Below, piece after piece: positions 6,024 through 55,606 of a stretch of DNA of 64,000 bases. The position numbers were made by a program, and so were the translations under genes. Origin of the DNA: Patiria pectinifera (lineage: Eukaryota > Echinodermata > Asteroidea > Valvatida > Asterinidae); NCBI GenBank assembly GCA_029964075.1, contig CM057140.1, forward strand, positions 2,994,643-3,058,642, given 5' to 3'. Position 1 is the stretch's first letter; each line of letters opens with the position of its first letter. The notes below the pieces were generated by a model that was given only the letters and a program-made list of their open reading frames with translations, was not told the origin of the DNA and searched no databases.

Positions 6024-6097
6024 TAGTTACGAATGTTGACTTGTTCTGAAAAACTCGCAGATTTATTTCCTAAAACTCATATCAATATTTGTTACAG

Positions 6098-9000
6098 ATC
6101 CCGATCTCGGTCCCCTAAGAGAAGGCGATCGCGGTCCCACTCCCGGTCTCGCTCGGGCTCCCGTTCCCGGTCCCGTTCCAAGCGGAAGAAGAGGTCACGC
6201 TCTCGCAGCCGCTCCCGTCGCTCCAAGCGGTCGAGGTCCCGGGACAAGCACGAGAGGCGAAGGGATCGGGACGAGGAGGAACGCCGGAAGGACAAAGAGA
6301 AGCGAGAGAAGGAGAGGGAGAGGGAGAAGAAGGGTCTTCCACCGCTCAAGGAGAAGCATCTCAGTGGTAGGATATTCCTGAGTATAATATATCAGTGGTA
6401 GGATAACATCTGGTAGTATAACATCTGGTTGGAAGGAGATATTTGTGTAACACATCTTAGTGGTAGGAGATTCCTGAGTATTGGATGTCAGTGGTAGGAG
6501 ATTCCCAAGTTTAATGTCTCACTGGTAGGAGATATTGTGTAAAATATCGGTGGTAAGAGATTCCCAAGTATTGAATCTCAGTGTTTGGCGATTCCTGAGT
6601 ATAACATCTCACAGGGGTGTGAAATCTCAGCTTTAAAGCTGATTTCAGCTTTTTTTGTTTTGGATTTCAGCTTTTTTCCCTCACTTGCTGTGTACAAAAG
6701 TATAGGAGATTTCCAAAGTTCAGCTTTTTTTTACCACCTTTTTCAGCTGTTTTCAGCTATTTTTATCGGTGGTCTCTCACACCCCTGATCTCAGTGGTAG
6801 GAGATTCCCAAGTTTAACGTCTCACAGATAGGAGATTCCTGAGTATAACATCTCAGTGGTGGGAGATTCCCAAGTTTAACGTCTCACAGATAGGAGATTC
6901 CTGAGTATAACATCTCAGTGGTAGAAGATTCCTGAGTGTTTAGTCTCAGTGGTAGGAGATTTCTGAGTACTTGGGATACTTTGGAATTCCAAAATGAATT
7001 TCAGACAAGAAATAGCAAACATGACTTTTGACTTGGCCTCAATCACTTTGTACTGACTTGGATGATGAATAACACTCAGACTTTTAGGTAGTTATCTTTT
7101 TTACTTGCAGTGTAGAACTTTTTGTATGTGAAATTGGCACTTACAGATGTATTTTTCTACCCCGTTATTCCTTTCTTTGCAGTCTGTACCAAGACACTCT
7201 GGGTTGGCCGATTGCCCAAGCTTGGAGCCGAGAGTGAACTGAAAAATTATCTCGAGGATTTTGGACCCATTGCAAAAGTTGACGTAAGCATTTTAAAGTG
7301 TATTTCCGTTGAGCATTTCAACAAAAACGTGTATGTGTTAAACATAATATTCAGCGCTCTTAAAAAAATGCAGCCGTTCAGCTCCAAACTTACCTTATTT
7401 GAAAATTGGATTGAACTTTTAATGTGAATTGCAATTAGTGATACCTTACAATTTATGTGGAATCCTTCATTATCTATTTCAACAGTTGGTACCCCCAAGA
7501 GGATGTGCCTACGTCTGCATGGAGAACAGACTGGATGCTTACAAGGCACTGGAGAGGCTGCGGAGAGGCAAGATGTTTGGAAACTCAGCCAAGGTACATA
7601 TAGCATTGATAACGAGCCAGTTCGCTATCTGTATGACTTAGTCCAGGTCAGAGGTTGTTGGGAATAAGATCACTAACGCGATGTTCAGCAAACACCTATT
7701 CCGCTCGTAATTAATGCGGGGGCGTTGTGTGAGCATCTCCTTGTGTGTTCAGTCACTTTTGATGAGCGTTCAATTATCCTGAATGACCTGTGACCCAGAT
7801 CATAGTGCACATGCGCAGTTGAAATACCAAACTGGCTTTTTATTAACCATTTTGGTGATGATAATGGAGAATGTGTTGAACATTGCGTCAATAAAATGAT
7901 CTATGATGCCCTATTAAGTGTGCATGTGGGCTACAAGATACGCGCCTTTCTGATTCTGCTGCAGCATTATTCTGACATCATTTCCTTGCCTTCCAGATTG
8001 CCTGGGCTCCAGGTAGGGGTGTGAAGGAGTACAAGCAGTACAATGACTTTTGGGAGGTAGAGAAGGGGGTGACCTACATTCCCTGGGACCACCTGCCCTC
8101 GGAGGTGGACCTTAACGAGCTGGCAGAGGGAGCAGCCATTGACGAGGCCACACTTCCTCCTGGCATGAAGCTAGGTGAGTCCAAAAGATGACTGTCGCCT
8201 GATGTGTTTTATTCTTTGTGCGAGAACTGTGCCTTGTTTGTTGTAAATAAGCTTGTTCATTAGTGGTACAAGTACTGATGTTTTTTTAATATGTTTGTAC
8301 TTGCAGAGTTGCCAGTTGAAGAAATTGAAGAGGAAACCCCAGCTCCTGGGATAACTCATCCCACTCAGATGGTTGCGACTGCCATGGGAGGCCAACCTGT
8401 GGCCCCTGGGATCATGATGCAAGGCCTGGGTCTAGTCAGGCCCAACATGGCCCAGGCCATACCCACAGTCGACCTCACAGTGCCAAACACCCTTCAGCCC
8501 ATGTCAATCAGACCCAGATTACCTGGCCCTGTTCCACCCACCACTAGCCAACCTCAGGCCACAGTGCCAAGCACCACTCACGAGATGGTCCGCATGCCTG
8601 TGTTCCAATCCGGCGTGTTCCCTCCCTTTGTTGGATACACTCCACAGATGCCACCGCCAGGGTTCCGCTTCGCTCCAGGTTTCCAAGCTCCACCCACAAC
8701 AGCTAGCATTCCAGTTAGTACGGTTCCATCAGGCGTACCTCCGCCTTCACTCTTCCCAAGGGGAGTGCCCCCTCCTACCAGCCAGCCAGGCCTGCCAGCA
8801 ACCACTGCTATGAAAATAGCTACCACCGTGGAATCAAGTAAGCCACACACAAGTGATGACAAGCTGGACTTCAGAATCCCAGGACTTGGTGGAGATCCAG
8901 TGTCTGGTAGAACACAGGAGAGCCATTTGCAGCTGCAAGGAGTGCCAGTGATGGGGGTACCACGTCCAGGCTTCCCCTTCTCTATGGCTTCCCTACAGCG

Positions 9001-11332
9001 CAGCATGCAGCAACAAGGAGGCACTCCAACCAGCCTGATGGGAGTTCATCCAGGCCAGCCGGGAACCCTGCCACCAGCATTCACCCAAGACCTCAGGTTA
9101 GGATTGCGGCCGCCCATGATGAGACCACCTGGGCCTGTCACCATCTCACAACTGGAAGGAAGTAACTCGGATGTAACCAAACAGGCTAAGAATGATGAGG
9201 GCCGACCACCGACCTCTGGAGCAAATGAAAAGGGTGATGTGGGTCCCCCTCAGGGTGTCTTTGCAGTGCCAAAGCCACCAGCCTCAATTCTTGGTAAATT
9301 CAAGGATCACATGGCACAAAGGGTCCCCTCTCCTGGCATGCCCGGAAGGAAGGATATTGATATGAGGGAAGATAAGGTCCCCCCGACTGGCACCAATCAC
9401 TTGGAAGGTGGCCCAGCCACTGGCAACACTGACCAAGACAAGATGGGTCTACGTCCTCCGATGTCTCAGGAGCATATTCTCACTGATGCTAATCGATTTC
9501 CTCCTGGTGTTCGTTTGATGAGACCGCTCATTGGCATCCAAGGGCAGCCGTTGATTCAAAGAGCCGTTGCACCAGGATTTAGGATGAGACTTCCTGGACC
9601 TGGACAGCAGTTTGCAATGCAGGGACAGATGATCCACATCCCAAATCAAGGGATGCAGCCCGGGGGACCCCAACTCCAGATGATGGGCATGAGACAGCTT
9701 CATCCAGGGATGATGGGTGGATCTGTTAGAGGAATGATCCCTCCTCAGGGGATAGCAAGCTCTGGAGGAATGCACAGGCCAGGAGGTATGGCACCCCCAG
9801 GTGGAATGCCTCAACCAGGTGGGATGCCGCCACCTGGAGGAATGCTCCCACAAGGCAGTATGCAACCTCCTCAAGGGGGAATACCTCCTCGTGGAGCTAT
9901 GCCACCGCCCTCTGGAGTACCTCCAAACAGCAGACCACAAGCCAGAGGTAATCAGGCGGGACAACAGGAGGCAGAAACCCGTGAGCCATTCCAGCCAGGC
10001 ATGAGAGGCGGACCACCTCAGATTGAAGGAGGGAGGGTTGACAGCGAGCGCAACCAGGATGGAGCACCAGAACGAAGTGGAGCTGGACGTAGCCGATGGG
10101 GACCTCCTGTGCCTCCTGCTGGGGAGAGAGAACGTATGCTACCTGACCGGGGTAGACCTGCCCCGGAACCCTTGATGGGTAAAGGAGACAAGGATTTCAG
10201 TGAGAGGGACATTGACATGCGAGAGAGGAAGTGGCTTGAAAGGGGCTGGCATGACCGGGATGATCGGGAGAGAGTTGGGATTGGGATGCGTGACCAGGAT
10301 TGGCGATTACCACCTGGAGGCCCAAGAGGACCTGATTGGAACCGAGACCGAGATGACCGTGGCTTTGTGAGACCAGATGATAGAGACATACGCCGGCCAG
10401 ATTTTGGCCGCGAGTGGAAACGACCAGGAGATAGAGACATGGATAGGGAACCATTCCGACCTGATGTGGACCGTGGTCGGGAGCCAGAAAGGAACCGGGA
10501 ACAGGACAGGGGTGGCTTCCGGGACCGCGACCGGGACTTTATGCGAGGACGGGACAGAGATCGAGACAGAGATCGTGACAGAGAGGTCATGCGGAGCCGT
10601 GACAGAGACCGCGATCGTGATAGGAGAGATCGCGACCGGGACCGAGATCGCAGGGAACACTATGACGATAAGCCACGTGAAGGCACCAGAGATCAGCCCG
10701 CTGATGACCAAAAAGTACCCCCTGAGCCCAGTCCTCAACAATCCCAGAAGCCATTGTTGAGTCCTGCACCTGTTGGCCAGCCTCCAAGTGGAATTCTTAA
10801 ACAACCCTCTGAAGCGGCTAAGCCAGAAGCAGTTGCTAAGGATCAAACTCCTGAAGCCAGCAGCTCTACACTCCCGAATCCTTCACAGGCTGTACCTCCC
10901 AAGTCCCCTCTAATCCAAGGTCTACCACCAGCTGCTGATAAAGAGCCTGTGATTGCTGCTGCTGCACCTGAACCGCACAAGCTCAATCCCCTTGCGGAAG
11001 CTTTTGTGCCCAGTGGAGCTGAAGAACCTCCAAGGGCAAAAACCCCTCAGGGACTCTATGCAGATGTCCCGGACCCAGTGCAACCTCAAACTCAGCCACC
11101 TCAACAGGCTCTTGAATCAGGGCCAGAGAACAATGGCCCTTTACCCAACATCCCTCCAATTGAAAATGAGAGAAGGAACTCAGATAATGACCAGGTGAAT
11201 TCAGCCCCACCTTTGGGCAATTCGTTGAGCGACAGCAAAGCCAAAGAAAATCCCCCCACAGAGAGTGCGAGTGAAGTCGCAGTGGGAGGGGAAGGGAATG
11301 CAGTCAGTGCCGAGGAGACTGAAAATACGTGA
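6098..11332 (+). CDS. SCAF4: SCAF4/SCAF8-like CTD-associated RNA-binding protein (5' part missing)
   Basis: Exons: 6098-6366, 7183-7283, 7486-7593, 7997-8174 and 8307-11332 (stop TGA), all GT-AG with consistent phases. They encode about 1226 residues. The first exon is an RS stretch followed by a charged K/E/R helix ending GLPPLKEK. An RRM follows, with RNP2 LWVGRL and RNP1 RGCAYVCM, then the family's conserved extension (EYKQYNDFWEVEKGVTYIPW). The large last exon is Pro/Met/Gly-rich, with GGMxPP repeats near 9760-9930, and has an RD-repeat tract (10200-10660). Known members bind phosphorylated RNA polymerase II CTD through an N-terminal CID and prevent early polyadenylation. That CID is not in the window or was not recognised, so the gene is 5'-partial. 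Human SCAF4 is 1147 aa and SCAF8 1271 aa. One SCAF4/8 gene is expected in invertebrates; the symbol follows the SOD1 linkage. Confidence 0.92.
6357..6976 (+). repeat. Intronic minisatellite built from the exon/5' splice-site junction
   Basis: About 31-bp units of the form CTCAGTGGTAGGAGATTCCT plus a gagtataacat tail. The first unit straddles the exon end, where CTCAGTG is exon and GTAGGA is the donor. About ten degenerate units follow, and a two-unit higher order (about 63 bp) is repeated near 6790-6915. A hAT-like element interrupts the array at 6612-6787. Confidence 0.8.
6612..6787. mobile_element. Short hAT-like MITE, 6-bp target duplication (copy 1)
   Basis: The termini are CAGGGGTGTGA at the left and the inverse TCACACCCCTG at the right, flanked by ATCTCA (6606-6611 and 6788-6793). 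The interior has TTTAAAGCTG and repeated TTCAGCTTTTTT motifs. An inverted-orientation copy is at 60082-60281. hAT families with 6-bp duplications are known; the superfamily call is inferred. Confidence 0.75.
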
Positions 11333-15439: not shown

Positions 15440-18400
15440 GATAATTTGCAAAAGCGACGGTAAACTACGACGCAGAAATAATATGATGAGGACAAGTACA
15501 TTCAATATTAAGCCATTATTTGGAAGATTTGTGCACAAATAATCGATATACAATTGAGAGAAAAAAATTAAACATGCTTTTCTCTGATTTTGACCCAAAT
15601 TTTCGACGCATTGTTCATGTCTAAGGGCACATCTGTCCAGAAATCGAGTTGGAATGTGTTCTAGGGTCCTTTAGGCATCTTTCCTGGAGGTTTGGCGCAA
15701 TTTCATTTTTTGGCCAAAAATGAAAAAATTGCAAGGGGTTAGCCTTACATTTTTCATCAAAATTTGGCCAAAAAATGACTTTTCTCCAAACGACGCAGAA
15801 ATGATTTTGATGCAAGGAAAGTAACATACAATATTCAAACTGCCATTATTTCGAAGATTTGGGCACAAATAATCGATTTATTGAGAGAAAAATCATATTT
15901 TTCACTGATTTTGACCCAAATTTTCGACGCATTGTTCATGTCTAACGGCACATCTGTCCACAAATCAAGTTGGAATGTGTTCTAGGGTCCTTAAGGCATC
16001 TTTCCTGGAGGTTTGGCGCAATTTCATTTTTTGGCCAAAAATGAAAAAAATTGCAAGGGGGTTAGCCTTGCATTTTTCATCAAATTTAGCCAAAAAATTA
16101 CTTCTCTGCAAACGACGCAGAAATGACTTTTGATGCAAGGAGAGTAACATACAGTACTCAAACTGCCATTATTTCGAAGATTTGGGCACAAATAATCGAT
16201 TTATTGAGAGAAAAATCATATTTTTCACTGATTTTGACCCAAATTTTCGACGCATTGTTCATGTCTAAAGGCACATCTGTCCACAAATCGAGTTGGAATG
16301 TGTTCTAGGGTCCTTTAGGCTTCTTTCCTGGAGGTTTGGTGCAATTTCATTTTTTGGCCAAAAATGAAAAAAATACAAGGGGTTAGCCTTACGTTTTTCA
16401 TCAAATTTGGCCAAAAAAATGACTTTTCTCCAAACGACGCAGAAATGACTTTTGATACAAGGAGAGAAATATACAGTACTCAAAACTGCCATTATTTCGA
16501 AGATTTGGGCACAAATAATCGGTTTATTGAGAGAAAAATCATATTTTTCACTGATTTTGACCCAAATTTTCGACGCATTGTTCATGTCTAAGGGCACATC
16601 TGTCCACAAATCGAGTTGGAATGTGTTCTAGGGTCCTTTAGGCTTCTTTCCTGGAGGTTTGGTGCAATTTCATTTTTTGGCCAAAAATGAAAAAAATACA
16701 AGGGGTTAGCCTTACATTTTTCATCAAATTTGGCCAAAAAATGACTTTTCTCCAAACGACGCAGAAATGACTTTTGATGCAAGGAGAGTAACATACAGTA
16801 CTCAAACTGCCATTTTTTTCGAAGATTTGGGTAAAAATAATCGATTTATTGAGAGAAAAATCATATTTTTTACTTATTTTGACCCAAATTTTCGACGCAT
16901 TGTTCATGTCTAAGGGCACATCTGTCCACAAATCGAGTTGGAATGTGTTTTAGGGTCCTTTAGACATCTTTCCTGGAGGTTTGGTGCAATTTCATTTTTT
17001 GGCCAAAAATTTAAAAAATACAAGGGGTTAGCCTTACATTTTTCATCAAATTTGGCCCAAAAAATGACTTTTCTCCAAACGACGCAGAAATGACTTTTGA
17101 TACAAGGAGAGAAATATACAGTACTCAAAGTGCCATTATTTCGAAGATTGGGGCACAAATAATCGATTTATTGAGAGAAAAATCTTATTTTTCACTGATT
17201 TTGACCCAAGTTTTCGACGCATTGTTCATGTCTAAGGGCACATCTGTCCACAAATCGAGTTGGAATGTGTTCTAGGGTCCTTTAAGCATCTTTCCTGGAG
17301 GTTTGGCGCAATTTCATTTTTTGGCCAAAAATTAAAAAAATTCAAGGTGTTAGCCTTACATTTTTCATCAAATTTGGCCAAAAAATGACTTTTCTCCAAA
17401 CGACGCAGAAATGACTTTTGATGCAAGGAGAGTAACATACAATATTCAAACTGCCATTATTTGGAAGATTTGGGCACAAATAATCGATTTATTGAGAGAA
17501 AAATCATATTTTTCACTGATTTTGACCCAAATTTTCGACGCATTGTTCATGTCTAAGGGCACATCTGTCCACAAATCTAGTTGGAATGTGTTCTAGGGTC
17601 CTTTAAGCATCTTTCCTGGAGGTTTGGCGCAATTTCATTTTTTGGCCAAAAATTAAAAAAATTCAAGGGGTTAGCCTTACATTTTTCATCAAAATTTGGC
17701 CAAAAAATGACTTTTCTCCAAACGACGCAGAAATGACTTTTGATGCAAGGAGAGTAACATACAGTACTCAAACTGCCATTTTTTTTGAAGATTTGGGCAC
17801 AAATAATCGATTTATTGAGAGAAAAATCATATTTTTCACTGATTTTGACCCAAATTTTCGACGCATTGTTCATGTCTAAGGGCACATCTGTCCACAAATC
17901 TAGTTGGAATGTGTTCTAGGGTCCTTTAAGCATCTTTCCTGGAGGTTTGGCGCAATTTCATTTTTTGGCCAAAAATGAAAAAAAATGCAAGGGGTTAGCC
18001 TTACATTTTTCATCAAATTTGGCCAAAAAATGACTTTTCTCCAAACGACGCAGAAATGACTTTTGATGCAAGGAGAGTAACATACAATATTCAAACTGCC
18101 ATTATTTGGAAGATTTGGGCACAAATAATCGATTTATTGAGAGAAAAATCATAGTTTTCACTGATTTTGACCCAAATTTTCGACGCATTGTTCATGTCTA
18201 AGGGCACATCTGTCCACAAATCGAGTTGGAATGTGTTCTAGGGTCCTTTAAGCATCTTTCCTGGAGGTTTGGCGCAATTTCATTTTTTGGCCAAAAATTA
18301 AAAAAATTCAAGGGGTTAGCCTTACATTTTTCATCAAAATTTGGCCAAAAAATGACTTTTCTCCAAACGACGCAGAAATGACTTTTGATGCAAGGAGAGT

Positions 18401-21400
18401 AACATACAGTACTCAAACTGCCATTTTTTTCGAAGATTTGGGTAAAAGTAATCGATTTATTGAGAGAAAAATCATATTTTTTACTGATTTTGACCCAAAT
18501 TTTCGACGCATTGTTCATGTCTAAGGGCACATCTGTCCACAAATCGAGTTGGAATGTGTTTTAGGGTCCTTTAGACATCTTTCCTGGAGGTTTGGTGCAA
18601 TTTCATTTTTTGGCCAAAAATGAAAAAAATACAAGGGGTGAGCCTTACATTTTTCATCAAATTTGGCCAAAAAATGACTTTTCTCCGAACGACGCAGAAA
18701 TGCCTTTTGATACAAGGAGAGAAATATACAGTACTCAAAAGTGCCATTATTTCGAAGATTTGGGCACAAATAATCGATTTATTGAGAGAAAAATCTTATT
18801 TTTCACTGATTTTGACCCAAATTTTCGACGCATTGTTCATGTCTAAGGGCACATCTGTCCACAAATCTAGTTGCAATGTGTTCTAGGGTCCTTTAGGCAT
18901 CTTTCCTGGAGGTTTGGCGCAATTTCATTTTTTGGCCAAAAATTTAAAAAATGCAAGGGGTTAGCCTTACATTTTTCATCAAATTTGGCCAAAAAATGAC
19001 TTTTCTCCAAACGACGCAGAAATGACTTTTGATGCAAGGAGAGTAACATACAGTACTCAAACTGCCATTATTTCGAAGATTTGGGCACAAATAATCGATT
19101 TATTGAGAGAAAAATCATATTTTTCACTAATTTTGACCCAAATTTTCGACGCATTGTTCATGTTTAAGGGCACATCTGACCACAAATCGAGTTGGAATGT
19201 GTTCTGGGGTCTTTTAGGCATCTTTCCTGGAGGTTTGGCGCAATTACATTTTTTGGCCAAAAATGAAAAAAATGCAAGGGGTTAGCCTAACATTTTTCAT
19301 CAAATTTGGCCAAAAAATGACTTTTCTCCAAACGACGCAGAAATGACTTTCGATGCAAGGAGAGTAACATAAAGTACTCAAACTGCCATTATTTCGAAGA
19401 TTTGGGCACAAATAATCGATTTATTGAGAGAAAAATCATTTTTTTTCACTAATTTTGACCCAAATTTTCGACGCACTGTTCATGTCTAAGGGCACATCTG
19501 TCCACAAATGGAGTTGGAATGTGTTCTAGGGTACTTTAGGCATCTTTCCTGAAGGTTTGGCGCAATTACATTTTTTGGCCAAAAATGAAAAAAATGCAAG
19601 GGGTTAGCCTTACATTTTTCATCAAATTTGGCCAAAAAATGACTTTTCTCCAAACGACGCAGAAATGACTTTTGATGCAAGGAGAGTAACATACAGTTCT
19701 CAAACTGCCATTATTTCGAATATTTGGGCACAAATAATCGATTTATTGAGAGAAAAATCATATTTTTCACTGATTTTGACCCAAGTTTTCGACGCATTGT
19801 TCATGTTTAAGGGCACATCTGACCACAAATCGAGTTGGAATGTGTTCTGGGGTCTTTTAGGCATCTTTCCCGGAGGTTTGGCGCAATTACATTTTTTGGC
19901 CAAAAATGAAAAAAATGCAAGGGGTTAGCCTTACATTTTTCATCAAATTTGGCCAAAAAATGACTTTTCTCCAAACGACGCAGAAATGACTTTTGATGCA
20001 AGGAGAGTCACATACAGTTCTCAAACTGCCATTATTTCGAATATTTGGGCACAAATAATCGATTTATTGAGAGAAAAGTCATATTTTTCACTGATTTTGA
20101 CCCAAATTTTTGACGCATTGTTCATGTTTAAGGGCACATCTGACCATAAATCGAGTTGGAATGTGTTCTAGGCTCTTTTAGGCATCTTTCCTGGAGGTTT
20201 GGCGCAATTTCATTTTTTGGCCAAATATGAAAAAAATGCAAGGGGTTAGCCTTACATTTTCCCTCAAATTTAGCCAAAAAATGACTTCTCTCCAAACGAC
20301 GCAGAAATGACTTTTGATGCAAGGAGAGGAACATACAGTACTCAAACTGCTATTATTTCAAAGATTTGGGCACAAATAATCGATTTATTGAGAGAAAAAT
20401 CATATTTTTCACAAATTTTGACCCAAATTTTCGACGCATTGTTCATGTCTAAGGGCACATCTGTCCACAAATCGAGTTGGAATGTGTTGTAGGGTCCTTT
20501 AGGCATCTTTCCTGGAGGTTTGGCGCAATTTCATTTTTTTGGCCAAAAATGAAAAAATGCAAGAGGTTAGCCTTACATTTTTTATCAAATTTGGCCAAAA
20601 AATGACTTTTCTCCAAACGACGCAGAAATGACTTTCGATGCAAGGAGAGTAACATAAAGTACTCAAACTGCCATTATTTCGAATATTTGGGCACAAATAA
20701 TCGATTTATTGAGAGAAAAATCATATTTTTCACTAATTTTGACCCAAATTTTCGACGCATTGTTCATGTCTAAGGGCACATCTGTCCACAAATCGAGTTG
20801 GAATGTGTTCTGGGGTCTTTTAGGCATCTTTCCTGGAGGTTTGGCGCAATTACATTTTTTGGCCAAAAATGAAAAAAATGCAAGGGGTTAGCCTTACATT
20901 TTTCATCAAATTTGGCCAAAAAATGACTTTTCTCCAAACGACGCAGAAATGACTTTTGATGCAAGGAGAGTAACATACAGTTCTCAAACTGCCATTATTT
21001 CGAATATTTGGGCACAAATAATCGATTTATTGAGAGAAAAGTCATATTTTTCACTGATTTTGACCCAAATTTTCGAGGCATTGTTCATGTTTAAGGGCAC
21101 ATCTGACCACAAATCGAGTTGGAATGTGTTCTGGGGTCTTTTAGGCATCTTTCCTGGAGGTTTGGCGCAATTACATTTTTTGGCCAAAAATGAAAAAAAT
21201 GCAAGGGGTTAGCCTTACATTTTTCATCAAATTTGGCCAAAAAATGACTTTTCTCCAAACGACGCAGAAATGACTTTTGATGCAAGGAGAGTAACATAAA
21301 GTACTCAAAACTGCCATTATTTCGAAGATTTGGGCACAAATAATCGATTTATTGAGAGAAAAATCATATTTTTCACTAATTTTGACCCAAATTTTCGACG

Positions 21401-24400
21401 CATTGTTCATGTCTAAGGGCACATCTGTCCACAAATCGAGTTGGAATTTGTTCTAGGGTCCTTTAGGCATCTTTCCTGGAGGTTTGGCGCAATTACATTT
21501 TTTGGCCAAAAATGAAAAAAATGCAAGGGGTTAGCCTTACATTTTTTATCAAATTTGGCCAAAAAATGACTTTTCTCCAAACGACGCAGAAATGACTTTC
21601 GATGCAAGGAGAGTAACATAAAGTACTCAAACTGCCATTATTTCGAATATTTGGGCACAAATAATCGATTTATTGAGAGAAAAATCATATTTTTCACTAA
21701 TTTTGACCCAAATTGTCGACGCATTGTTCATGTCTAAGGGCACATCTGTCCACAAATCGAGTTGGAATGTGTTCTGGGGTCTTTTAGGCATCTTTCCCGG
21801 AGGTTTGGCGCAATTACATTTTTTGGCCAAAAATGAAAAAAATGCAAGGGGTTAGCCTTACATTTTTCATCAAATTTGGCCAAAAAATGACTTTTCTCCA
21901 AACGACGCAGAAATGACTTTTGATGCAAGGAGAGTAACATACAGTTCTCAAACTGCCATTATTTCGAATATTTGGGCACAAATAATCGATTTATTGAGAG
22001 AAAAGTCATATTTTTCACTGATTTTGACCCAAATTTTCGAGGCATTGTTCATGTTTAAGGGCACATCTGACCACAAATCGAGTTGGAATGTGTTCTGGGG
22101 TCTTTTAGGCATCTTTCCTGGAGGTTTGGCGCAATTACATTTTTTTGGCCAAAAATGAAAAAATGCAAGGGGTTAGCCTTACATTTTTCATCAAATTTGG
22201 CCAAAAAATGACTTTTCTCCAAACGACGCAGAAATGACTTTTGATGCAAGGAGAGTAACATAAAGTACTCAAAACTGCCATTATTTCGAAGATTTGGGCA
22301 CAAATAATCGATTTATTGAGAGAAAAATCATATTTTTCACTAATTTTGACCCAAATTTTCGACGCATTGTTCATGTCTAAGGGCACATCTGTCCACAAAT
22401 CGAGTTGGAATTTGTTCTAGGGTCCTTTAGGCATCTTTCCTGGAGGTTTGGCGCAATTACATTTTTTGGCCAAAAATGAAAAAAATGCAAGGGGTTAGCC
22501 TTACATTTTTTATCAAATTTGGCCAAAAAATGACTTTTCTCCAAACGACGCAGAAATGACTTTCGATGCAAGGAGAGTAACATAAAGTACTCAAACTGCC
22601 ATTATTTCGAATATTTTGGCACAAATAATCGATTTATTGAGAGAAAAATCATATTTTTCACTAATTTTGACCCAAATTGTCGACGCATTGTTCATGTCTA
22701 AGGGCACATCTGACCACAAATCGAGTTGGAATGTGTTCTGGGGTCTTTTAGGCATCTTTCCCGGAGGTTTGGCGCAATTACATTTTTTGGCCAAAAATGA
22801 AAAAAATGCAAGGGGTTAGCCTTACATTTTTCATCAAATTTGGCCAAAAAATGACTTTTCTCCAAACGACGCAGAAATGACTTTTTGATGCAAGGAGAGT
22901 AACATAAAGTACTCAAAACTGCCATTATTTGGAAGATTTGGGCACAAATAATCGATTTATTGAGAGAAAAATCATATTTTTCACTAATTTTGACCCAAAT
23001 TTTCGACGCATTGTTCATGTCTAAGGGCACATCTGTCCACAAATCGAGTTGGAATTTGTTCTAGGGTCCTTTAGGCATCTTTCCTGGAGGTTTGGCGCAA
23101 TTACATTTTTTGGCCAAAAATGAAAAAAATGCAAGGGGTTAGCCTTACATTTTTTATCAAATTTGGCCAAAAAATGACTTTTCTCCAAACGACGCAGAAA
23201 TGACTTTCGATGCAAGGAGAGTAACATAAAGTACTCAAACTGCCATTATTTCGAATATTTGGGCACAAATAATCGATTTATTGAGAGAAAAATCATATTT
23301 TTCACTAATTTTGACCCAAATTGTCGACGCATTGTTCATGTCTAAGGGCACATCTGTCCACAAATCGAGTTGGAATGTGTTCTGGGGTCTTTTAGGCATC
23401 TTTTCTTGGAGGATTGGCGTAATTTCATTTTTTGGCCAAAAATGAAAAAAAAATGCAAAGGGTTAGCCTTACATTTTTCATCAAATTTGGCCAAAAAATG
23501 ACTTTTCTCCAAACGACGCAGAAATGACTTTTGATGCAAGGAGAGTAACATACAGTTCTCAAACTGCCATTATTTCGAATATTTGGGCACAAATAATCGA
23601 TTTATTGAGAGAAAAGTCATATTTTTCACTGATTTTGACCCAAATTTTCGACGAATTGTTCATGTTTAAGGGCACATCTGACCACAAATCGAGTTGAAAT
23701 ATGTTCTGGGGTCTTTTAGGCATCTTTCCTGGACGTTTGGCGCAATTACATTTTTTGGCCAAAAATGAAAAAAATGCAAGGGGTTAGCCTTACATTTTTC
23801 ATCAAATTTGGCCAAAAAATGACTTTTCTCAAAACGACGCAGAAATGACTTTTGATGCAAGGAGAGTAACATACAGTACTCAAACTGCCATTATTTCGAA
23901 GATTTGGGCACAAATAATCGATTTATTGAGAGAAAAATCATATTTTTCACTAATTTTGACCCAAATTTTCGACGCATTGTTCATGTTTAAGGGCACATCT
24001 GACCACAAATCGAGTTGGAATGTGTTCTGGGGTCTTTTAGGCATCTTTCCTGGAGGTTTGGCGCAATTACATTTTTTGGCCAAAAATGAAAAAAATGCAA
24101 GGGGTTAGCCTAACATTTTTCATCAAATTTGGCCAAAAAATGACTTTTCTCCAAACGACGCAGAAATGACTTGTGATGCAAGGAGAGTAACATAAAGTAC
24201 TCAAAACTGCCATTATTTCGAAGATTTGGGCACAAATAATCGATTTATTGAGAGAAAAATCATATTTTTCACTAATTTTGACCCAAATTGTCGACGCATT
24301 GTTCATGTCTAAGGGCACATCTGTCCACAAATCGAGTTGGAATGTGTTCTAGGGTCCTTTAGGCATCTTTCCTGCAGGTTTGGCGCAATTTCATTTTTTG

Positions 24401-26810
24401 GCCAAAAATGAAAAAAATGCAAGGGGTTAGCCTTACATTTTTCATCAAATTTGACCAAAAAATGACTTTTCTCCAAACGACGCAGAAATGACTTTTGATG
24501 CAAGGAGAGTAACATAAAGTACTCAAACTGCCATTATTTCGAAGATTTGGGCACAAATAATCGATTTATTGAGAGAAAAATCATTTTTTTTCACTAATTT
24601 TGACCCAAATTTTCGACGCACATTTCATGTCTAAGGGCACATCTGTCCACAAATGGAGTTGGAATGTGTTCTAGGGTACTTTAGGCATCTTTCCTGAAGG
24701 TTTGGCGCAATTACATTTTTTGGCCAAAAATGAAAAAAATGCAAGGGGTTAGCCTTACATTTTTCATCAAATTTGGCCAAAAAATGACTTTTCTCCAAAC
24801 GACGCAGAAATGACTTTTGATGCAAGGAGAGTAACATACAGTTCTCAAACTGCCATTATTTCGAAGATTTGGGCACAAATAATCGATTTATTGAGAGAAA
24901 AGTCATATTTTTCACTGATTTTGACCCAAATTTTCGACGCATTGTTCATGTCTAAGGGCACATCTGTCCACAAATCGAGTTGCAATGTGTTCTGGGGTCT
25001 TTTAGGCATCTTTCCTGGAGGTTTGGCGCAATTACATTTTTTGGCCAAAAATGAAAAAAATGCAAGGGGTTAGCCTTACATTTTTCATCAAATTTGGCCA
25101 AAAAATGACTTTTCTCCAAACGACGCAGAAATGACTTTTGATGCAAGGAGAGTAACATACAGTTCTCAAACTGCCATTATTTCGAATATTTGGGCACAAA
25201 TAATCGATTTATTGAGAGAAAAGTCATATTTTTCACTGATTTTGACCCAAATTTTCGACGCATTGTTCATGTTTAAGGGCACATCTGACCACAAATCGAG
25301 TTGAAATGTGTTCTGGGGTCTTTTAGGCATCTTTCCTGGAGGTTTGGCGCAATTACATTTTTTGGCCAAAAATGAAAAAAATGCAAGGGGTTAGCCTTAC
25401 ATTTTTCATCAAATTTGGCCAAAAAATGACTTTTCTCCAAACGACGCAGAAATGACTTTTGATGCAAGGAGAGGAACATACAGTACTCAAACTTCCATTA
25501 TTTCGAAGATTTGGGCACAAATAATCGATTTATTGAGAGAAAAATCATATTTTTCACCGATTTTGACCCAAATTTTCGACGCATTGTTCATGTCTAAGGG
25601 CACATCTGTCCACAAATCGAGTTGCAATGTGTTTTAGGGTCTTTTAGGCATCTTTCCTGGAGGTTTGGCGCAATTTCATTTTTTGGCCAAAAATGAAAAA
25701 AATGCAAGGGGTTAGCCTTACATTTTTCATCAAATTTGGCCAAAAAATGACTTTTCTCCAAACGACGCAGAAATGACTTTTGATGCAAGGAGAGTAACAT
25801 ACAGTACTCAAACTGCCATTATTTCGAAGATTTGGGCACAAATAATCGATTTATTGAGAGAAAAATCATATTTTTCACTGATTTTGACCCAAATTTTCGA
25901 CGCATTGTTCATGTCTAAGGGCACATCTGTCCACAAATCGAGTTGGAATGTGTTCTAGGGTCCTTTAGGCATCTTTCCTGGAGGTTTGGCGCAATTTCAT
26001 TTTTTGGCCAAAAATGAAAAAAATGCAAGGGGTTAGCCTTACATTTTTCATCAAATTTAGCCAAAAAAATGACTTTTCTCAAAACGACGCAGAAATGACT
26101 TTTGATGCAAGGAGAGTAACATACAATATTAAAACTGCCATTATTTCGAAGATTTGGGCACAAATAATCGATTTATTGAGAAAAAAAAATATCATATTTT
26201 ATAACTAATTTTGACCTCAAGTTTGACGCATTGTTCCTGTCTAAGGGCACATCTGTCCAGAAATCGAGTTGGAATGTGTTCTAGGGTCCTTTTAGGCATC
26301 TTTCCTGGAGGTTTGGCGGAATTTCATTTTTTGGCTAAAAATGAAAAATTGCAAGGGGTTAGCCTTACATTTTTCATCAAATTTGGTCAAAAAAAGACTT
26401 TTCTCCAAATGACGCAGAAATGACTTTTGATGCAAGGAGAGTATCATTCAATATTCAAACTGCCACTATTTGGAAGATTTGGGCACAAATAATCGATTTA
26501 TTGAAGAAATTTTTTTTTTTTTTTTTACTTATTTCGACCCAAATTTTTGAAGCATTGTTTAGGTCTAAGGGCACATCTGTCCTGAAATCGAGTTGGAATG
26601 TCTGATCTAGGGTCCTTTTGGCATCTTTCCTGGAAGTTTGGCGCAATTTAATTTTTGGCCCAAAATTGAAAAATAACTGCAAAAGGGTTAGTTAACCTTA
26701 TATTTTTCATCTAATTTTGCTATCATTTTGAATATTTGGTCACAAATAATCGATTCATTGAGTAAAAAAAATCATATTTTTTTTCACTGATTTTGACCAA
26801 AATTGTCCAC
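15440..26810. repeat. Satellite array, about 35 monomers of 321 bp
   Basis: Head-to-tail units of about 321 bp, clear from recurrence of ggcacatctg(t/a)ccacaaatc every 321-322 bases from about 15626 to 26570. Each unit has two TTTGGCCAAAAA palindromes about 70 bases apart and the block CACAAATAATCGATTTATTG. The edge monomers (before 15600 and after 26200) are most diverged; the centre is nearly uniform. Between about 20.4 and 23.4 kb diagnostic variants recur every 964 bp, a trimeric higher-order unit. Short frames (60-114 aa) appear on both strands of every unit only because stops are rare; none is a gene. Confidence 0.97.
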
Positions 26811-27730: not shown

Positions 27731-30700
27731 TTACTTGCCGATGCCAATGACACCGCAAGCCAGACGGCCCCCGGCATTACCGGTGGTCAAGCTCAGCTCA
27801 TGGCCCCCCTTGCCTAGATCGTCAACGTCGGCGTGCACCTAAGACAAAGCAAGGAGGATGAAAGTTCTTTTGGTTCACAAATAATAAATAGTCTGCTACG
27901 ACAGGTTAAGAATATACTTTTTCTTTAGAATGTGAATACCACTTTGTATACATTGTTATACAACGCCTGAATAAATCCCCGTCATCTGATTGGTCGATCG
28001 TTGATCACGTCTTGAATTATTCGTACCAATGCACGGCGCGCGCGTGGCGCGCAACGCGCAGTGCAATGGTAGTACTATTGCACTGTGATTAGAAGTACCA
28101 TTGCACTGTCACTGCACATGTTGCCGATGGTGGCGCTGTGGTGTTTAAATTGGCAATAAAAGTTCTGAACTTATTGAACTGTTTGAGTTCTAAACTTATG
28201 GAAAAGTTTTAAGGTGAGATAAATTGAATATTATAGTTCTCAACCTGTTGAACAGTTTGCATAATATGATAACTCTGAACTTGTCAAACTTGTAAACATT
28301 TTTTAACCTGAATAAATTGGCTATTGAAAGTCAACCAATCAGATGACGAGGATTTATTCAGGTGTTATATAAAACAAGTAATGAATGTTTTACGTTCGTG
28401 CAATAGAAAGAATAATTTCATTCGGTGACAGATGAAATGTTCCATTCCACTCCGCTTCGCCTCGTGAAATGGAACATTTCATCTGCCACCTCATGAAATT
28501 ATTCTTTCCATTGCACTCACAAACATTCATTATTTGTATAACATCATCAGGTGAAAAGGCAGTTATCACAATCTACATCTCCTCAAAAAGTCCACTTAAT
28601 GTCGTTCATTGTACCCAATGTTGAACTAGATCGAACCTCGGTGTCTGAGGACTTAAACCTAAAATTATGTAATCCATGTGTTCAAGTCCAACCTGTACAA
28701 GCATATTAATTTTTGTTTTTCGGCAAGCCATTAGATGCCCTTGAAATGTTTATAATGCTTATGAAATTACATTTGTAAGAGGCAAAAATCGAATTTGAAA
28801 TTATTTTTCCCCAACGCAAAATTCATTCATAAATAACAGTGACTTATTTTCAATTTGTTAAAAAAAAATTCTTTTACACAAAAAAAAATCAAGAAATTCA
28901 AGCCCATTTTCAGCTGGGATTATCTGATGACTTACCACCATAGCGCGTCCGATGATGGAGTTAGGGCCAGTCAGCGTGATTATCTTATCAGTGATGTTCA
29001 CGTTGACTTTGCCGTCCGCGCCGGCTTCCACGTTGCCCAAATCTCCAACATGCCTGGACAAAGTATTTAAAAAAAAAAGACACCGAATTGAACCAACGTG
29101 CCCTGTGATGCCGTCATTCAAATTCTCTTACTTGGAATTCAAAACTTAAATTTATAAAATAAAGTTTTTTAATTTTTTACCTGACTTCATCCCCAGGTGC
29201 CCCATGGACCTTGCCGAAGGGGTTGAAGTGGGAGCCAGTGCTGGTACAGCCTAAACAAACAAATATTATTCCATGCTAACATTTTGGTTTTTACAGGAAC
29301 AAAGAATACAGTCACTGAATACTTGGTTTTATATAGAAGAAGAGGTACATTTATCAATTCTTAAGAGACTTAAAGGGAATATACATCATTTGCTTTTGCT
29401 GTAATTTTCAGAAATGGATGGAATTGGGGGGTTGGAAATATATAGCAAATATAGTTACACTGACTTTTTTGAGTTTTTGGGTTCGAAAATGCTATAAAAA
29501 CCAAGAAAAACAATCTTTTTCCTGTAGTCTGGTTCCCTGACTCCATTTAAGAAGAAACAGAGCAGTTTACATATATTGGGGAATTGTAAGGTCAGGGAAC
29601 CAGTCTAGCTGGCTTGTACCCGTTCATAGGTGTGTAATCGATTGCAAACGAGTGCGATGGTCAACTGAACTGGGGCCAGTATTTGAAAAAAAGCCAGTTT
29701 TTTCCAACGCTGGTCGGCCGATCAGCATTGGAAATTGATACAAAAATACCACTTTTCTTGAAAATGACAGTATACCAGGTACCATGATTTTACAGGATGC
29801 TTTACACTGTCATTCACTACCAGTCCAGCAAGGTATTTCAAAATGATTTGGTAGTTTTATTTTTTGATGTTTGCAAATGTTGTATTTTCCCTTTAAGCGT
29901 ATCTAGGAGTAGAACTTTAAAAACAAATCTTGACAAGGATAAATTGCAAATCTTGGCACAATGTAGTGAGAAACTGGTTTATGTTTTTACATGGCCTAAT
30001 ACTGCTCCACAGTAGAACAAGTGGTGAATGGCAACCTCATTCCCAAGGTGTTGAGCAGTACGCGCCCACCACTGCCTGCTCTCTCACCCTGGTATTGGAT
30101 CATTTGCATGTGCAAGATTTTTTAACACTTATGCAAATGAGGAATAGTCTGGTGCCTGCATATGCGTTACATTAACCTTTGTTTTTGTATGAGGTGTCTG
30201 GGTAACAGCATCAATTCGTCGCGCCGTGAGTTTTGGAAGTTAATATGATACAATACAAGCAAATTGCGGTACCGAATCAGGATACAGGAAGAAAGTTTCC
30301 TATCCAGGGCTTACTATTGGAAACGAGGTTGGAAATAAAGTAAGCACTGAGGACAAGGTCGGGTGAAAGGGGAATATTGAATAAATGAATAACATACCTC
30401 CAGTGTAGTCACCAAACTCATGGACGTGAAATCCATGTTTGCCTGGAGCCAGTCCGGTCACCTCACCCGTCACTTTGACGCTATCACCCTGGAACAAGAA
30501 AAAAGGGGAGGGGCAGTCAGCATGCAGTATTATTCCTAGGTAATTGTACACAATCTTAGGTAGGGTGGAATGGAAGTTGACATGGTTGAGGTAAAGATTT
30601 TAATTTTATAATACTGAATTGGCAATATTTTATGTTGTAAGCTAGCCCCATAAATGTGGCCAGTTTACTGGACTGCCTCCGTAAACATAGGCCACACACC

Positions 30701-37977: not shown

Positions 37978-39768
37978 TTAATTGCTAATTTCCATGTATG
38001 TGACCGGTTCTGCATTCTTGGCGTTCGAGTTTCCCGCGCGAACTTGGACTGGTACCTCGCCGATCGCTAGGTATCCCGATGAACTTGATACAGGCGACGC
38101 CTGTCTGGCCATTGGCGCGGTCGTCAAGTGCTTCTCAAGACGGATGGTGGCCATTTCTCGGTTGATTTGCTGCTGGTTGGCGGTCTCTGGATTGACGTAT
38201 TCCCCCGAGGACTGGTAGAGGGCGTTGTCCACGATGGCGCCTGGGGTAGAGACTTGAATTACCTGCGGTGAGCGCTGGTCCACGTTGGTCTCCATGTCAA
38301 AGTTGGGCGCACCGACTTGAGAGTATACAGGCGGCGTGGTCGAACCGACCATGGGTTCTTGGTACCCGTGTGAGTCCACCATGGTTTGCTTGGTCGGCGT
38401 CGCTCCCCATTTCTCGTCTGGGTCGAAGATCGTCGCGTACATGTACATGCCGTCAGTGCCAGAGCCGGGGACTTCGTGTCCCGGGTTGGGCCCCCCGAAA
38501 GTGCTCGGGGATATACGGAGCGGTCGTTTGCTGGTTGTGGGCTTCCCGTGTCGTCGTCTCTTGCATTTGCGGCAACAGCAGTAGACTATGAGAGCTAGGA
38601 GTAGGGCGACTAGGATCGATCCACCGCCGATGATGCCGATGGTGGCCGGGTAGGACCCGAAGATGAGGAACGGTTGGCCCGGTTTGGGGGTTGATGTCAC
38701 TGGTGTGTCCCCAGTACTCGTCTCAACTGTTGGATCAACAACAGTCTGTCCAGGACTTTCCGTCGAGATGACAAACTCCGTGTGTCCTGTGGCTTGCTTC
38801 CCGTTTTCAAAGTACACGGTGCAGTGGACGTCCATGCCTTGGTCTTCCTCTTTCACTGTAAGCAACCTCATCCTACTGGGACCGGTAGAGGAGAAATAAG
38901 CTCGGTTGTTTCCCAGAGAGGGGACGGTGTGCCAGCTTACTGTGTAGGTGAGGCTGGTGATGTTGGGTAAAACGGTGCAGAGGAACTGGGCCATGCCTCC
39001 TATCACGATCGGGTTAGGGGCGGAGCTGACTACCACTTGAGGCTCTGGCAGAACGGTGATGGGACCGACAGTGCACTCCCTCATGCTTGCCTCGCTCCCA
39101 CAACCGGTAAGAGACGCCGTGCAATGGTACATCAACCCCTGGTGATCTTCTGAAACAGTTAATGTGATCTCTCGGGTGTTGGTATTTTGCATGGCGTCAT
39201 GAGTATCTGTTGAGACGACAACGGTTCCATCATCCAGCGTCCACACGGGGACTGCATTCCGTGAAGTACAACCGAAGGACACAACGTCCCCAGTCAGAGC
39301 AACTACAGGCCCCACGGGGTTGCACATGTCGGTACTGTCGTAGTCTACCACCGACGATATCTCTATTGAAACCGACTGGACGACATCATATCCCGAGCCG
39401 GCTCTGTGTTGGTACACCGTACAGCTATAGTTTCCTCGGTCCTGCTTGCAAACCGGCTGGATGGTTAGCAAGGAGATCACATTGCCGGGAGGATCCTGAG
39501 GGATCTCGGACAGGGTGAAGCGGGACGAACCAGGCCCCTGCGGGTCTTGACTCGGTAGCAGGTCTCCGTCCCAAGAGATGGGCTGATTGTCCTTGCTGAT
39601 GGCCACGACCTGGCCGTTGCTGACGGTAACTTGGCATTGCATGACCACCCGTCCGTACTCCGCTGGCTCCGAAGTTGATACCGACATAGAACCCGAAGCC
39701 GGGGGAGCTGTGTTATCAGCAACAGTTCTCACAACCACGAAAACCATCCAAATCACAAAGCGCGCCAT
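37978..39768 (-). CDS. Single-exon type I membrane receptor: three Ig domains, two ITIM motifs
   Basis: Starting at the ATG that gives signal peptide MARFVIWMVFVVVRTVA, the protein has 596 residues; an upstream in-frame extension (to 39984) is probably 5' UTR because only this ATG opens a signal peptide. Ig1 spans C45-C116 (DRGNYSC), Ig2 C167-C216 (W176, YHC) and Ig3 C264-C316 (W279). Likely N-glycosylation sites are N113 and N269. A Thr/Pro stalk precedes one helix (about 375-397) ending in CCCRKCKRRR. The 200-residue tail has ITIM SGYLAI (Y566), ITIM VTYMEI (Y591, at the C terminus), a GRB2-type YVNP (Y524) and tyrosines at 442, 444, 469, 482 and 518. Such tails recruit SHP phosphatases in known receptors. 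No introns are seen. Specific family not recognised; adhesion or immune inhibitory receptor inferred. Confidence 0.85.
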   Translation of the reverse strand: MARFVIWMVFVVVRTVADNTAPPASGSMSVSTSEPAEYGRVVMQCQVTVSNGQVVAISKDNQPISWDGDLLPSQDPQGPGSSRFTLSEIPQDPPGNVISLLTIQPVCKQDRGNYSCTVYQHRAGSGYDVVQSVSIEISSVVDYDSTDMCNPVGPVVALTGDVVSFGCTSRNAVPVWTLDDGTVVVSTDTHDAMQNTNTREITLTVSEDHQGLMYHCTASLTGCGSEASMRECTVGPITVLPEPQVVVSSAPNPIVIGGMAQFLCTVLPNITSLTYTVSWHTVPSLGNNRAYFSSTGPSRMRLLTVKEEDQGMDVHCTVYFENGKQATGHTEFVISTESPGQTVVDPTVETSTGDTPVTSTPKPGQPFLIFGSYPATIGIIGGGSILVALLLALIVYCCCRKCKRRRHGKPTTSKRPLRISPSTFGGPNPGHEVPGSGTDGMYMYATIFDPDEKWGATPTKQTMVDSHGYQEPMVGSTTPPVYSQVGAPNFDMETNVDQRSPQVIQVSTPGAIVDNALYQSSGEYVNPETANQQQINREMATIRLEKHLTTAPMARQASPVSSSSGYLAIGEVPVQVRAGNSNAKNAEPVTYMEISN

Positions 39769-40290
39769 TTTAAGGCCTGATGATAAATTCCTCTGTAATA
39801 CCAAATGCACTGAATATTCCTTCATTATACTGCGATGTACTATCTCACACCAGTACGCCACAAAAACAGACTGATACCAACTTCGACCAGTGTACTTTAT
39901 CGGGGCAACCCGGATGTCTAAACCACACGCACTACCTATTTTGATAGAGGCAGTTTCCTGTGTGGGTGTGTGTATGTGGTGCATTGATGAGCAAAGCCGG
40001 GTGGTTCGCTATAGCTAGGTACAGTCCCAAAAATCCCCCGTCACAAAAACAGTCGTCAAAACGGCGGTTCGGTATGAACTCGTGACGTCACTTTTTGTTC
40101 TCATTTCCGACAGGCTATTTTGGGCTCCGAACCCAAAGAAAAAAAAGATAATGGACACCAAAGGGAGGGCCCAAAACATAATTTTTGGGGCGGGGCAAGA
40201 GGCCTCGATTATATACTTTGCTTTAAAGGGGAAAGGGATGATGTATAAAGTATCGTGCGTTATCTCCACATTGTAATATTGAAACTTGAG
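39769..40290. other. Upstream region of the receptor gene
   Basis: Contains GTGACGTCAC (40082-40091), a CRE-like palindrome about 320 bases above the start codon. No TATA box was identified. Promoter role is inferred from position only. Confidence 0.35.
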
Positions 40291-45179: not shown

Positions 45180-45194
45180 TTAAACAAAGAAATT

Positions 45195-45265
45195 GACTGG
45201 AGCAAGTTTGAACCTGCAACCTTCTGATTACTGTTCCAGTGCTCTACCACCTGAGCTATCCAGCC
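45195..45265 (-). pseudogene. tRNA-like sequence within the dispersed repeat
   Basis: On the minus strand the 7-bp acceptor halves GGCTGGA and TCCAGTC pair fully. A box TAGCTCAGGTGGTAGAGC and B box GGTTCAAAC are present, but the anticodon stem is mispaired and position 33 is C. Not a functional tRNA. Confidence 0.6.
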
Positions 45266-55203: not shown

Positions 55204-55606
55204 GGTCCTTTTAAAATCATTACTTGCTTTCCAGTTTTAGTCACAATGTCGAAAGAAGGTTGCATAGCTTGATGGGTGGGCGGCACTCATAAGAGTGGTG
55301 TACACAGTCATTCTGAGGAAAGTTTTAAAAAAGAAGAAGATTTTTTAAACAGAGACATTGACTGGAGCGGGGTTTGAACCTGAGACCTCTGGATTGCCGT
55401 TCCGGTGCTCTACCAACTGAGCTATTCAGCCCATTTAGTCAATGTCTTTGTTCTAGGAGTTATAAACGCTAAACTATTTGCCGTGTTGCCATGGATCCTG
55501 TGCATAGTCAGGATGCTAACAAGATCAGCAATGCTGCAAACCTGGGAAAAAGCAAACGGGGATCACTCAGAGAGAATACGGCTTTTTGTTTAAAATGTTC
55601 AAATAA
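55204..55606. repeat. Dispersed repeat with embedded tRNA-like sequence (copy 2, intact)
   Basis: Uninterrupted relative of 44486-45476; shows the site where the TTAA element entered copy 1. Confidence 0.7.
55360..55431 (-). pseudogene. tRNA-like sequence within the dispersed repeat
   Basis: Minus strand: A box TAGCTCAGTTGGTAGAGC, B box GGTTCAAACC, six of seven acceptor pairs, weak T stem. Probably a SINE head or relic. Confidence 0.6.

Follow-up and report, generated by a model that had tools for sequence, protein, structure and literature searches.

The window analyzed here is a stretch of 64,000 nucleotides from the sea star Patiria pectinifera (GenBank assembly GCA_029964075.1, contig CM057140.1, positions 2,994,643 to 3,058,642). 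Its minus strand carries a gene for a predicted cell-surface receptor with three immunoglobulin (Ig) domains, called the window gene below. The coding sequence runs from 39768 to 37981 with a stop codon at 37980 to 37978, and it forms one open frame of 596 codons with no internal stops. The initial annotation of this DNA had called the gene intronless, and at the DNA level its coding part is indeed uninterrupted. The chosen ATG is likely to be the start because its context is TTAAAATGG and a hydrophobic stretch comes next. The frame is still open upstream to 40008 (676 codons), with an additional ATG at 39984, so the start is not proven. An AATAAA or ATTAAA first occurs 358 bases 3' of the stop.

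Domain structure of the window protein

The window protein has the features of a type I membrane protein with an Ig ectodomain and two strict immunoreceptor tyrosine-based inhibitory motifs (ITIMs) in its cytoplasmic tail (Table 1). Pfam Ig_3 matches three stretches of the protein. An AlphaFold model of residues 19-403, built from a 33-row alignment, has a mean predicted local distance difference test score (pLDDT) of 83.7 and a predicted template modeling score (pTM) of 0.60. It shows three domains rich in strands and a single helix where the membrane span is expected, and known Ig chains match it across model residues 4-318. The Pfam matches and the model, run as a check, agree with the three Ig domains and single helix of the initial annotation. 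The tail tyrosines are at positions 442, 444, 469, 482, 518, 524, 566, and 591. The residue numbers given earlier for SGYLAI (Y566), VTYMEI (Y591), and YVNP (Y524) are exact, and the "at least five" further tail tyrosines prove to be exactly five (442, 444, 469, 482, and 518).

Table 1. Features of the window gene and its predicted product
Feature	Position in window	Strand	Basis
Three-Ig type I membrane receptor, single-frame coding sequence, 596 amino acids and stop	37978..39768	-	Open reading frame, Pfam, AlphaFold model
Likely signal peptide, residues 1-18, MARFVIWMVFVVVRTVAD	39715..39768	-	Hydrophobicity and position only
Ig1, V-set-like, about residues 26-139, C45 and C116	39352..39693	-	Pfam, alignment, model
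Ig2, about residues 143-241, C167/C216 and extra family cysteines C149/C232 (a probable pair)	39046..39342	-	Pfam, alignments, model
Ig3, about residues 244-334, C264/C316	38767..39039	-	Pfam, sequence, model
Transmembrane helix, about residues 377-402	38563..38640	-	Tail analysis, model
Cytoplasmic tail, about residues 403-596, 8 tyrosines	37981..38562	-	Sequence
Y444 in YMYATI, Yxx[IVL] site	38437..38439	-	Sequence motif
Y482 in PVYSQV, Yxx[IVL] site	38323..38325	-	Sequence motif
Y524 in YVNP, proposed GRB2 site; YxN unenriched in family	38197..38199	-	Sequence motif
Y566 in SGYLAI, first of C-terminal tyrosine pair	38071..38073	-	Motif, family geometry
Y591 in VTYMEI, second of pair, 25 residues on, with 5 residues after it	37996..37998	-	Motif, family geometry

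A family of single-frame Ig receptors

The window gene is an outlier within a large family of intronless Ig receptor genes. The genome (613.5 Mb in 1020 contigs) was searched with the window protein, with the two-domain ectodomains of the relatives L002 and L025, and with the whole of L006. No more than 150 candidates were scored in each search, so the family counts are lower bounds. The window protein gave 44 matches including itself, while L002, L025, and L006 gave 150, 148, and 92 rows. The 434 rows were joined when they lay on the same contig, had the same frame length, and started less than 1200 bases apart, a rule that may count a broken gene twice. This left at least 215 distinct related frames, of which 182 are uninterrupted and at least 300 amino acids long (median 487), 16 have an internal stop, and 17 are short. 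The 182 long frames are spread over 17 contigs and clustered, with 54 at C6:890-1190k, 28 at C6:4.45-4.75M, 15 at C6:370-580k, and smaller groups elsewhere.

Fifty-three genes were examined in full. They are the nearest to the queries and not a random subset of the 182; the remaining frames are known from the searches alone and may include other Ig genes. Dropped before the counts were L009 (in two pieces), L026, L028, and a fragment of L047 (internal stop or truncated), five second copies of genes, and L036_9283, which ends at a region edge without a membrane span. L002 is a cut copy of L040; it was counted in the set of 48 tails described below and removed from the 53-gene set. Members carry two or three Ig domains. 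The window gene has the features that define the family, namely an uninterrupted frame, a signal peptide (judged by hydrophobicity only), Ig domains, a membrane span, and a tail. Its relatives are long frames at about 17-32% identity, and the best BLAST relative is L040 on C2, a three-Ig protein that is 28% identical over 320 residues.

Ordinary Ig exons of this genome are mostly short. In a contrasting search with the I-set domain, 120 of the 150 scored matches (the best 150 of 1285 candidates) were in frames under 300 amino acids, with a median of 140.5; the long frames among the matches listed include one of 3812 amino acids on C2. The earlier remark that a single-exon gene for a multi-Ig protein is unusual therefore holds in this genome, and its suggestion of a lineage-specific family is borne out within one genome by the 182 or more long frames. 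No description of the family as found here was seen among the top-ranked titles of the open-access literature.

Members of the family share ectodomain residues beyond the usual Ig cysteines. In an alignment of 17 members C45, Y114, C116, C149, C167, C216, and C232 (window numbering) are invariant, and the same seven columns are invariant in all 15 rows of a second alignment. In the 33-row set C45, C116, C167, C216, and C232 are invariant, while C149 and Y114 are conserved in at least 90% of the rows. C232 directly precedes GP, and it probably bonds with C149 as an extra Ig2 pair. In a tree of the 53 ectodomains, whose midpoint root serves for display only, a branch with support 97/88 has the window gene on its 40-row side. 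The branch of the window gene itself is long (1.57) and lies next to L003 and L005 with support 95/67, a grouping that the program flagged as long branches meeting.

Tail motifs and their geometry

The tyrosine motifs of the window tail gain real weight only from its relatives, in which their enrichment and geometry recur. The window tail itself holds two strict ITIMs where 0.27 are expected (a number reached in 116 of 5000 shuffles) and four Yxx[IVL] sites where 1.13 are expected (reached in 77 of 5000). The family counts were made on 27 non-redundant tails from 48 rows, defined as having less than 10% of six-letter words in common, with 2000 shuffles. Yxx[IVL] occurs 66 times in these tails against 27.1 in shuffled sequences (no shuffle as high), the strict ITIM 16 times against 6.2 (one shuffle as high), and YA[DEKNQST][IVL] 21 times against 0.78 (no shuffle as high). 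YxxM (5 against 5.3) is not enriched. The GRB2 site proposed at YVNP is not supported, as YxN is at chance both in the window tail (1 against 0.45 expected, 1883 of 5000 shuffles as high) and in the family (12 against 11.3).

The motifs are also placed in a characteristic way. A Yxx[IVL] tyrosine is found within the last 12 residues of 21 of the 53 tails, compared to 2.6 in shuffled tails (maximum 9 in 2000). Among all 53 genes, 35 tails have at least two motifs, and in 20 of these the last two are 20 to 28 residues apart, with the last no more than 22 from the end. The same geometry is found in 12 of the 21 two-motif tails among 32 non-redundant ones; the mean was 0.15 in shuffles (maximum 3 in 2000) and 0.56 when the tyrosines were held in place (maximum 4). 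The window gene fits this class, with 25 residues between Y566 and Y591. In ten of the 53 tails the pair takes the form YA[DE]L[DE]L followed by YAx[IVL], with the tyrosines 20 to 28 residues apart. The best alignment of the window tail is with L023 (E 0.17), in which VTYMEI is level with VLYAEV and SGYLAI is within two residues of IVYADL. Comparison of paralogues shows that paired C-terminal motifs recur across the family.

YxxP is another enriched motif in the 27 tails (51 against 22.6 shuffled).

Probable exchange of tails and ectodomains in a C6 cluster

Tails and ectodomains appear to have been reshuffled among neighboring genes. The 17 genes of C6:890-1190k form 136 pairs, and in 19 pairs the Ig1-Ig2 region is at least 72% identical. 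Twelve of these 19 have tails that are at most 49% identical, while seven have tails that are at least 85% identical. Ectodomain and tail identities are 82% and 33% for L014/L015, 81% and 29% for L007/L010, and 80% and 30% for L024/L025, the low tail values being rough because tail lengths differ. The reverse is seen in L013/L017, with tails 96% and ectodomains 79% identical. As these genes are intronless, the mixing implies that recombination or gene conversion has probably taken place within the single exon. The ratio of nonsynonymous to synonymous substitution rates (dN/dS) is below 1 for each of the 13 pairs whose tails are 80% or more alike, so positive selection is not seen in these averages.

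A candidate SHP-2-like gene

A candidate SHP-2-like gene is found on the minus strand at C6:19.694-19.722 Mb, where three SH2 (Src homology 2) and two phosphatase matches occur in order within 27 kb. The SH2 exon at C6:19718176-19718334 has PTPN11 as its first match (E 9.7e-35).

Other SH2 and phosphatase sequences are numerous. On the plus strand of C14 at 13.05-13.56 Mb there are seven pairs of SH2 half-domain matches, spaced by about 0.4-0.5 kb, and three unpaired halves; this tandem SH2 gene family could be partners of tyrosine tails. At least 158 matches to protein tyrosine phosphatase exons were found in the genome, chiefly on C3, C17, and C19, indicating a large phosphatase repertoire.

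Discussion

The window gene probably encodes an inhibitory-type receptor that recruits an SHP phosphatase and belongs to an expanded intronless family, a reading in which we have moderate confidence. An inhibitory or adhesion receptor had been proposed in the initial annotation, and the inhibitory type is supported insofar as the ITIM pair, its spacing, and its C-terminal position recur in the family. The V-set-like Ig1 and the two further Ig domains would bind a partner that is probably carried by another cell or by a microbe. A Src-type kinase may phosphorylate Y566 and Y591, and the doubly phosphorylated pair at the end of the tail could then be gripped by both SH2 domains of an SHP-2-like phosphatase. 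The recruited phosphatase would damp activating tyrosine signals in the same cell, with the inhibitory sign and the cell type presumed. In the vertebrate receptor G6B-b the tyrosine pair is spaced by 26 residues; SHP-1 requires both phosphates, while SHP-2 is able to bind one (PMC3501490).

Several observations weigh against recruitment of SHP. The 20-28 spacing class was fixed after the values had been seen, and the non-redundant tails may share descent, which the shuffles ignore. The window pair begins with YLAI, unlike the YA[DE]L[DE]L of ten other tails, and the window tail is only weakly similar to the tails of other members. Yxx[IVL] is absent from seven of the 53 tails. The tree neighbors L003 (C6:4.53 Mb) and L005 (C10:19.47 Mb) each have two Ig domains and a short tail that lacks tyrosine, and they may be decoys or depend on an adaptor. 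For the phosphatase exon at C6:19698352, receptor-type phosphatases are a better match (2.8e-24) than PTPN11 (1.3e-18), and it is therefore uncertain that this exon is in the same gene as the SH2 exons. Finally, YxxPhi is an endocytic signal too, read by AP-2.

This last point leads to a different possible function, in which the tail motifs would be YxxPhi sorting signals for AP-2 clathrin endocytosis with no phosphatase recruitment, and the protein would serve in adhesion or uptake. Of the enriched classes Yxx[IVL] is the broadest, and it fits YxxPhi; several family tails hold many other tyrosines. Against this reading, we know of no need for sorting signals to be present in two copies 20 to 28 residues apart at the C-terminus, or to show the preference for YA[DEKNQST][IVL]. 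It has a small chance of being correct.

The window gene might also be the Patiria kirrelL gene, or a close homologue with a role in adhesion or fusion, although this is unlikely. Echinoderm KirrelL is described as an intronless Ig membrane gene that is conserved, is needed for fusion of skeletogenic cells, and is present in Patiria (PMC8903837). The window gene resembles it, by description only, in being a single-exon echinoderm gene (in its coding part) for an Ig membrane protein; the same description mentions no ITIM. Other three-Ig members outside the C6 clusters (L040-L051 and L053-L056) are also candidates for kirrelL. The region upstream of the gene was scanned with Alx1 and Ets1 site patterns, and its 614 bases contain no TAAT-N2-4-ATTA site, six half sites, and two Ets-type sites. 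The means for 46 family genes, in which the window gene was included from another ATG, are 0.04, 6.7, and 2.0; the window gene does not differ from them, and the counts are uninformative about kirrelL.

An activating or dual-purpose receptor, in which some of the tyrosines recruit Syk or SH2 adaptors and not SHP, is improbable as well. The FcoR proteins of Botryllus carry ITIM, hemITAM (half of an immunoreceptor tyrosine-based activation motif, ITAM), or a bare YxxI/L/V core that can be read as either sign (PMC12065747). In the sea star, the tail swaps between similar ectodomains suggest receptors of opposite sign. Tyrosine spacing within an ITAM is narrower than 25, and the spacing in the window tail exceeds it. 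In addition, only two of the 53 membrane spans have a charged residue in their 19-residue core, both at its edge, so no adaptor with a charged partner residue is suggested.

It is very improbable that the window gene arose recently as a retrocopy of an Ig gene with introns, with tail motifs inherited or due to chance. The coding part has no intron, and retrotransposition is the proposed origin of kirrelL (PMC8903837), but the relatives are themselves long single frames of low identity, no run of nine or more A occurs within 800 bases past the stop (the nearest is at 879 bases), the long branch indicates that the gene is old, and none of the 44 matches of the window protein is an intron-bearing parent of much higher identity. 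The retroposition of this gene raised in the initial annotation is not shown, and introns are absent throughout the family.

As a putative SHP-recruiting receptor the window protein would have counterparts in other animals. SIRP-alpha, CD22, and PD-1 are vertebrate Ig receptors with a C-terminal pair of ITIM and immunoreceptor tyrosine-based switch motif (ITSM) sites. The window gene differs from vertebrate receptors of this kind, such as G6B-b as described (PMC3501490), in being intronless and of the sea-star lineage, and it is not related to them by shown orthology. It also differs in its YLAI and YMEI motifs and its extra Ig2 cysteine pair. The Botryllus FcoR proteins are, in their published description, likewise invertebrate Ig receptors of 520-610 amino acids with ITIM, hemITAM, or YxxI/L/V core motifs (PMC12065747). 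They have a sushi domain between the Ig domains, while a Pfam scan of the window protein to E 10 gave Ig families and weak membrane-type matches only, with no sushi domain. The Alr allorecognition complex of Hydractinia is reported to have 41 genes, V-set and I-set domains, and ITIM- or ITAM-type motifs (PMC11999971, PMC12065747). Hydractinia is a cnidarian, and the sea-star set is larger (at least 182 frames of 300 or more amino acids) and single-frame.

More tentatively, the intronless Ig genes of sea stars may have given rise to an independent counterpart of the KIR, LILR, and SIRP receptors, which we regard as possible but doubtful. There would be at least about 180 receptors, many of them clustered; recombination within the exon would join SHP-recruiting or other tails to similar ectodomains, and the receptors would set the threshold of coelomocyte attack on non-self. 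If so, the window gene would be an inhibitory member of this repertoire with its own ligand, and the intronless family would be a prime candidate for sea-star allorecognition. ITIM signaling is usually regarded as belonging to vertebrate immunity, with tunicates and cnidarians as outliers. An echinoderm family that is large, clustered, and intronless and has the same two-tyrosine geometry would point to deep conservation of the SHP docking rule or to strong convergence on it. Adult P. pectinifera coelomocytes recognize allogeneic cells, and several histocompatibility genes may be involved; no allorecognition gene is named for sea stars in that account (PMC9763293). Cloning and exchanging intronless genes is simple, and the tail swaps found in nature give a direct way to test the sign of each tail.

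Other features of the window and the genome

The window contains repeats and parts of other genes. A satellite array occupies positions 15512-26717, with a 321-base unit in 34.8 copies and 94% matches. On the minus strand, the frame at 30300-30599 includes a stretch of Cu/Zn superoxide dismutase (Pfam Sod_Cu 8.3e-9, 30/133 positions) and is probably one exon of a neighboring gene. The plus strand at 6027-11332 has an RS-rich frame, an RRM-like frame (under the Pfam cut-off), and a frame of 1013 amino acids rich in RD repeats; we take these to resemble a splicing factor of the SCAF4/8 type. Minisatellites with a 31-base unit lie inside this region at 6357-6969. Rfam has tRNA matches on the minus strand at 45194-45265 and 55359-55431. 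ARAGORN reports neither, and the two are possibly tRNA-derived repeats.

A degenerate pattern for the starfish neuropeptide S1 has a single match in the genome, at C16:976243, and the precursor encoded there suggests, as one piece of evidence, that the genome is that of Patiria, either P. miniata or a species very close to it. The SALMFamides of Patiria miniata include PAGSPVFHSALTYamide, AFHSALPFamide, and GYHTGLPFamide, with S1 (GFNSALMFamide) from the same precursor (PMC3594158). The frame at C16:976243 encodes PAGSPVFHSALTY, AFHSALPF, GFNSALMF, and GYHTGLPF, with GKR after each.
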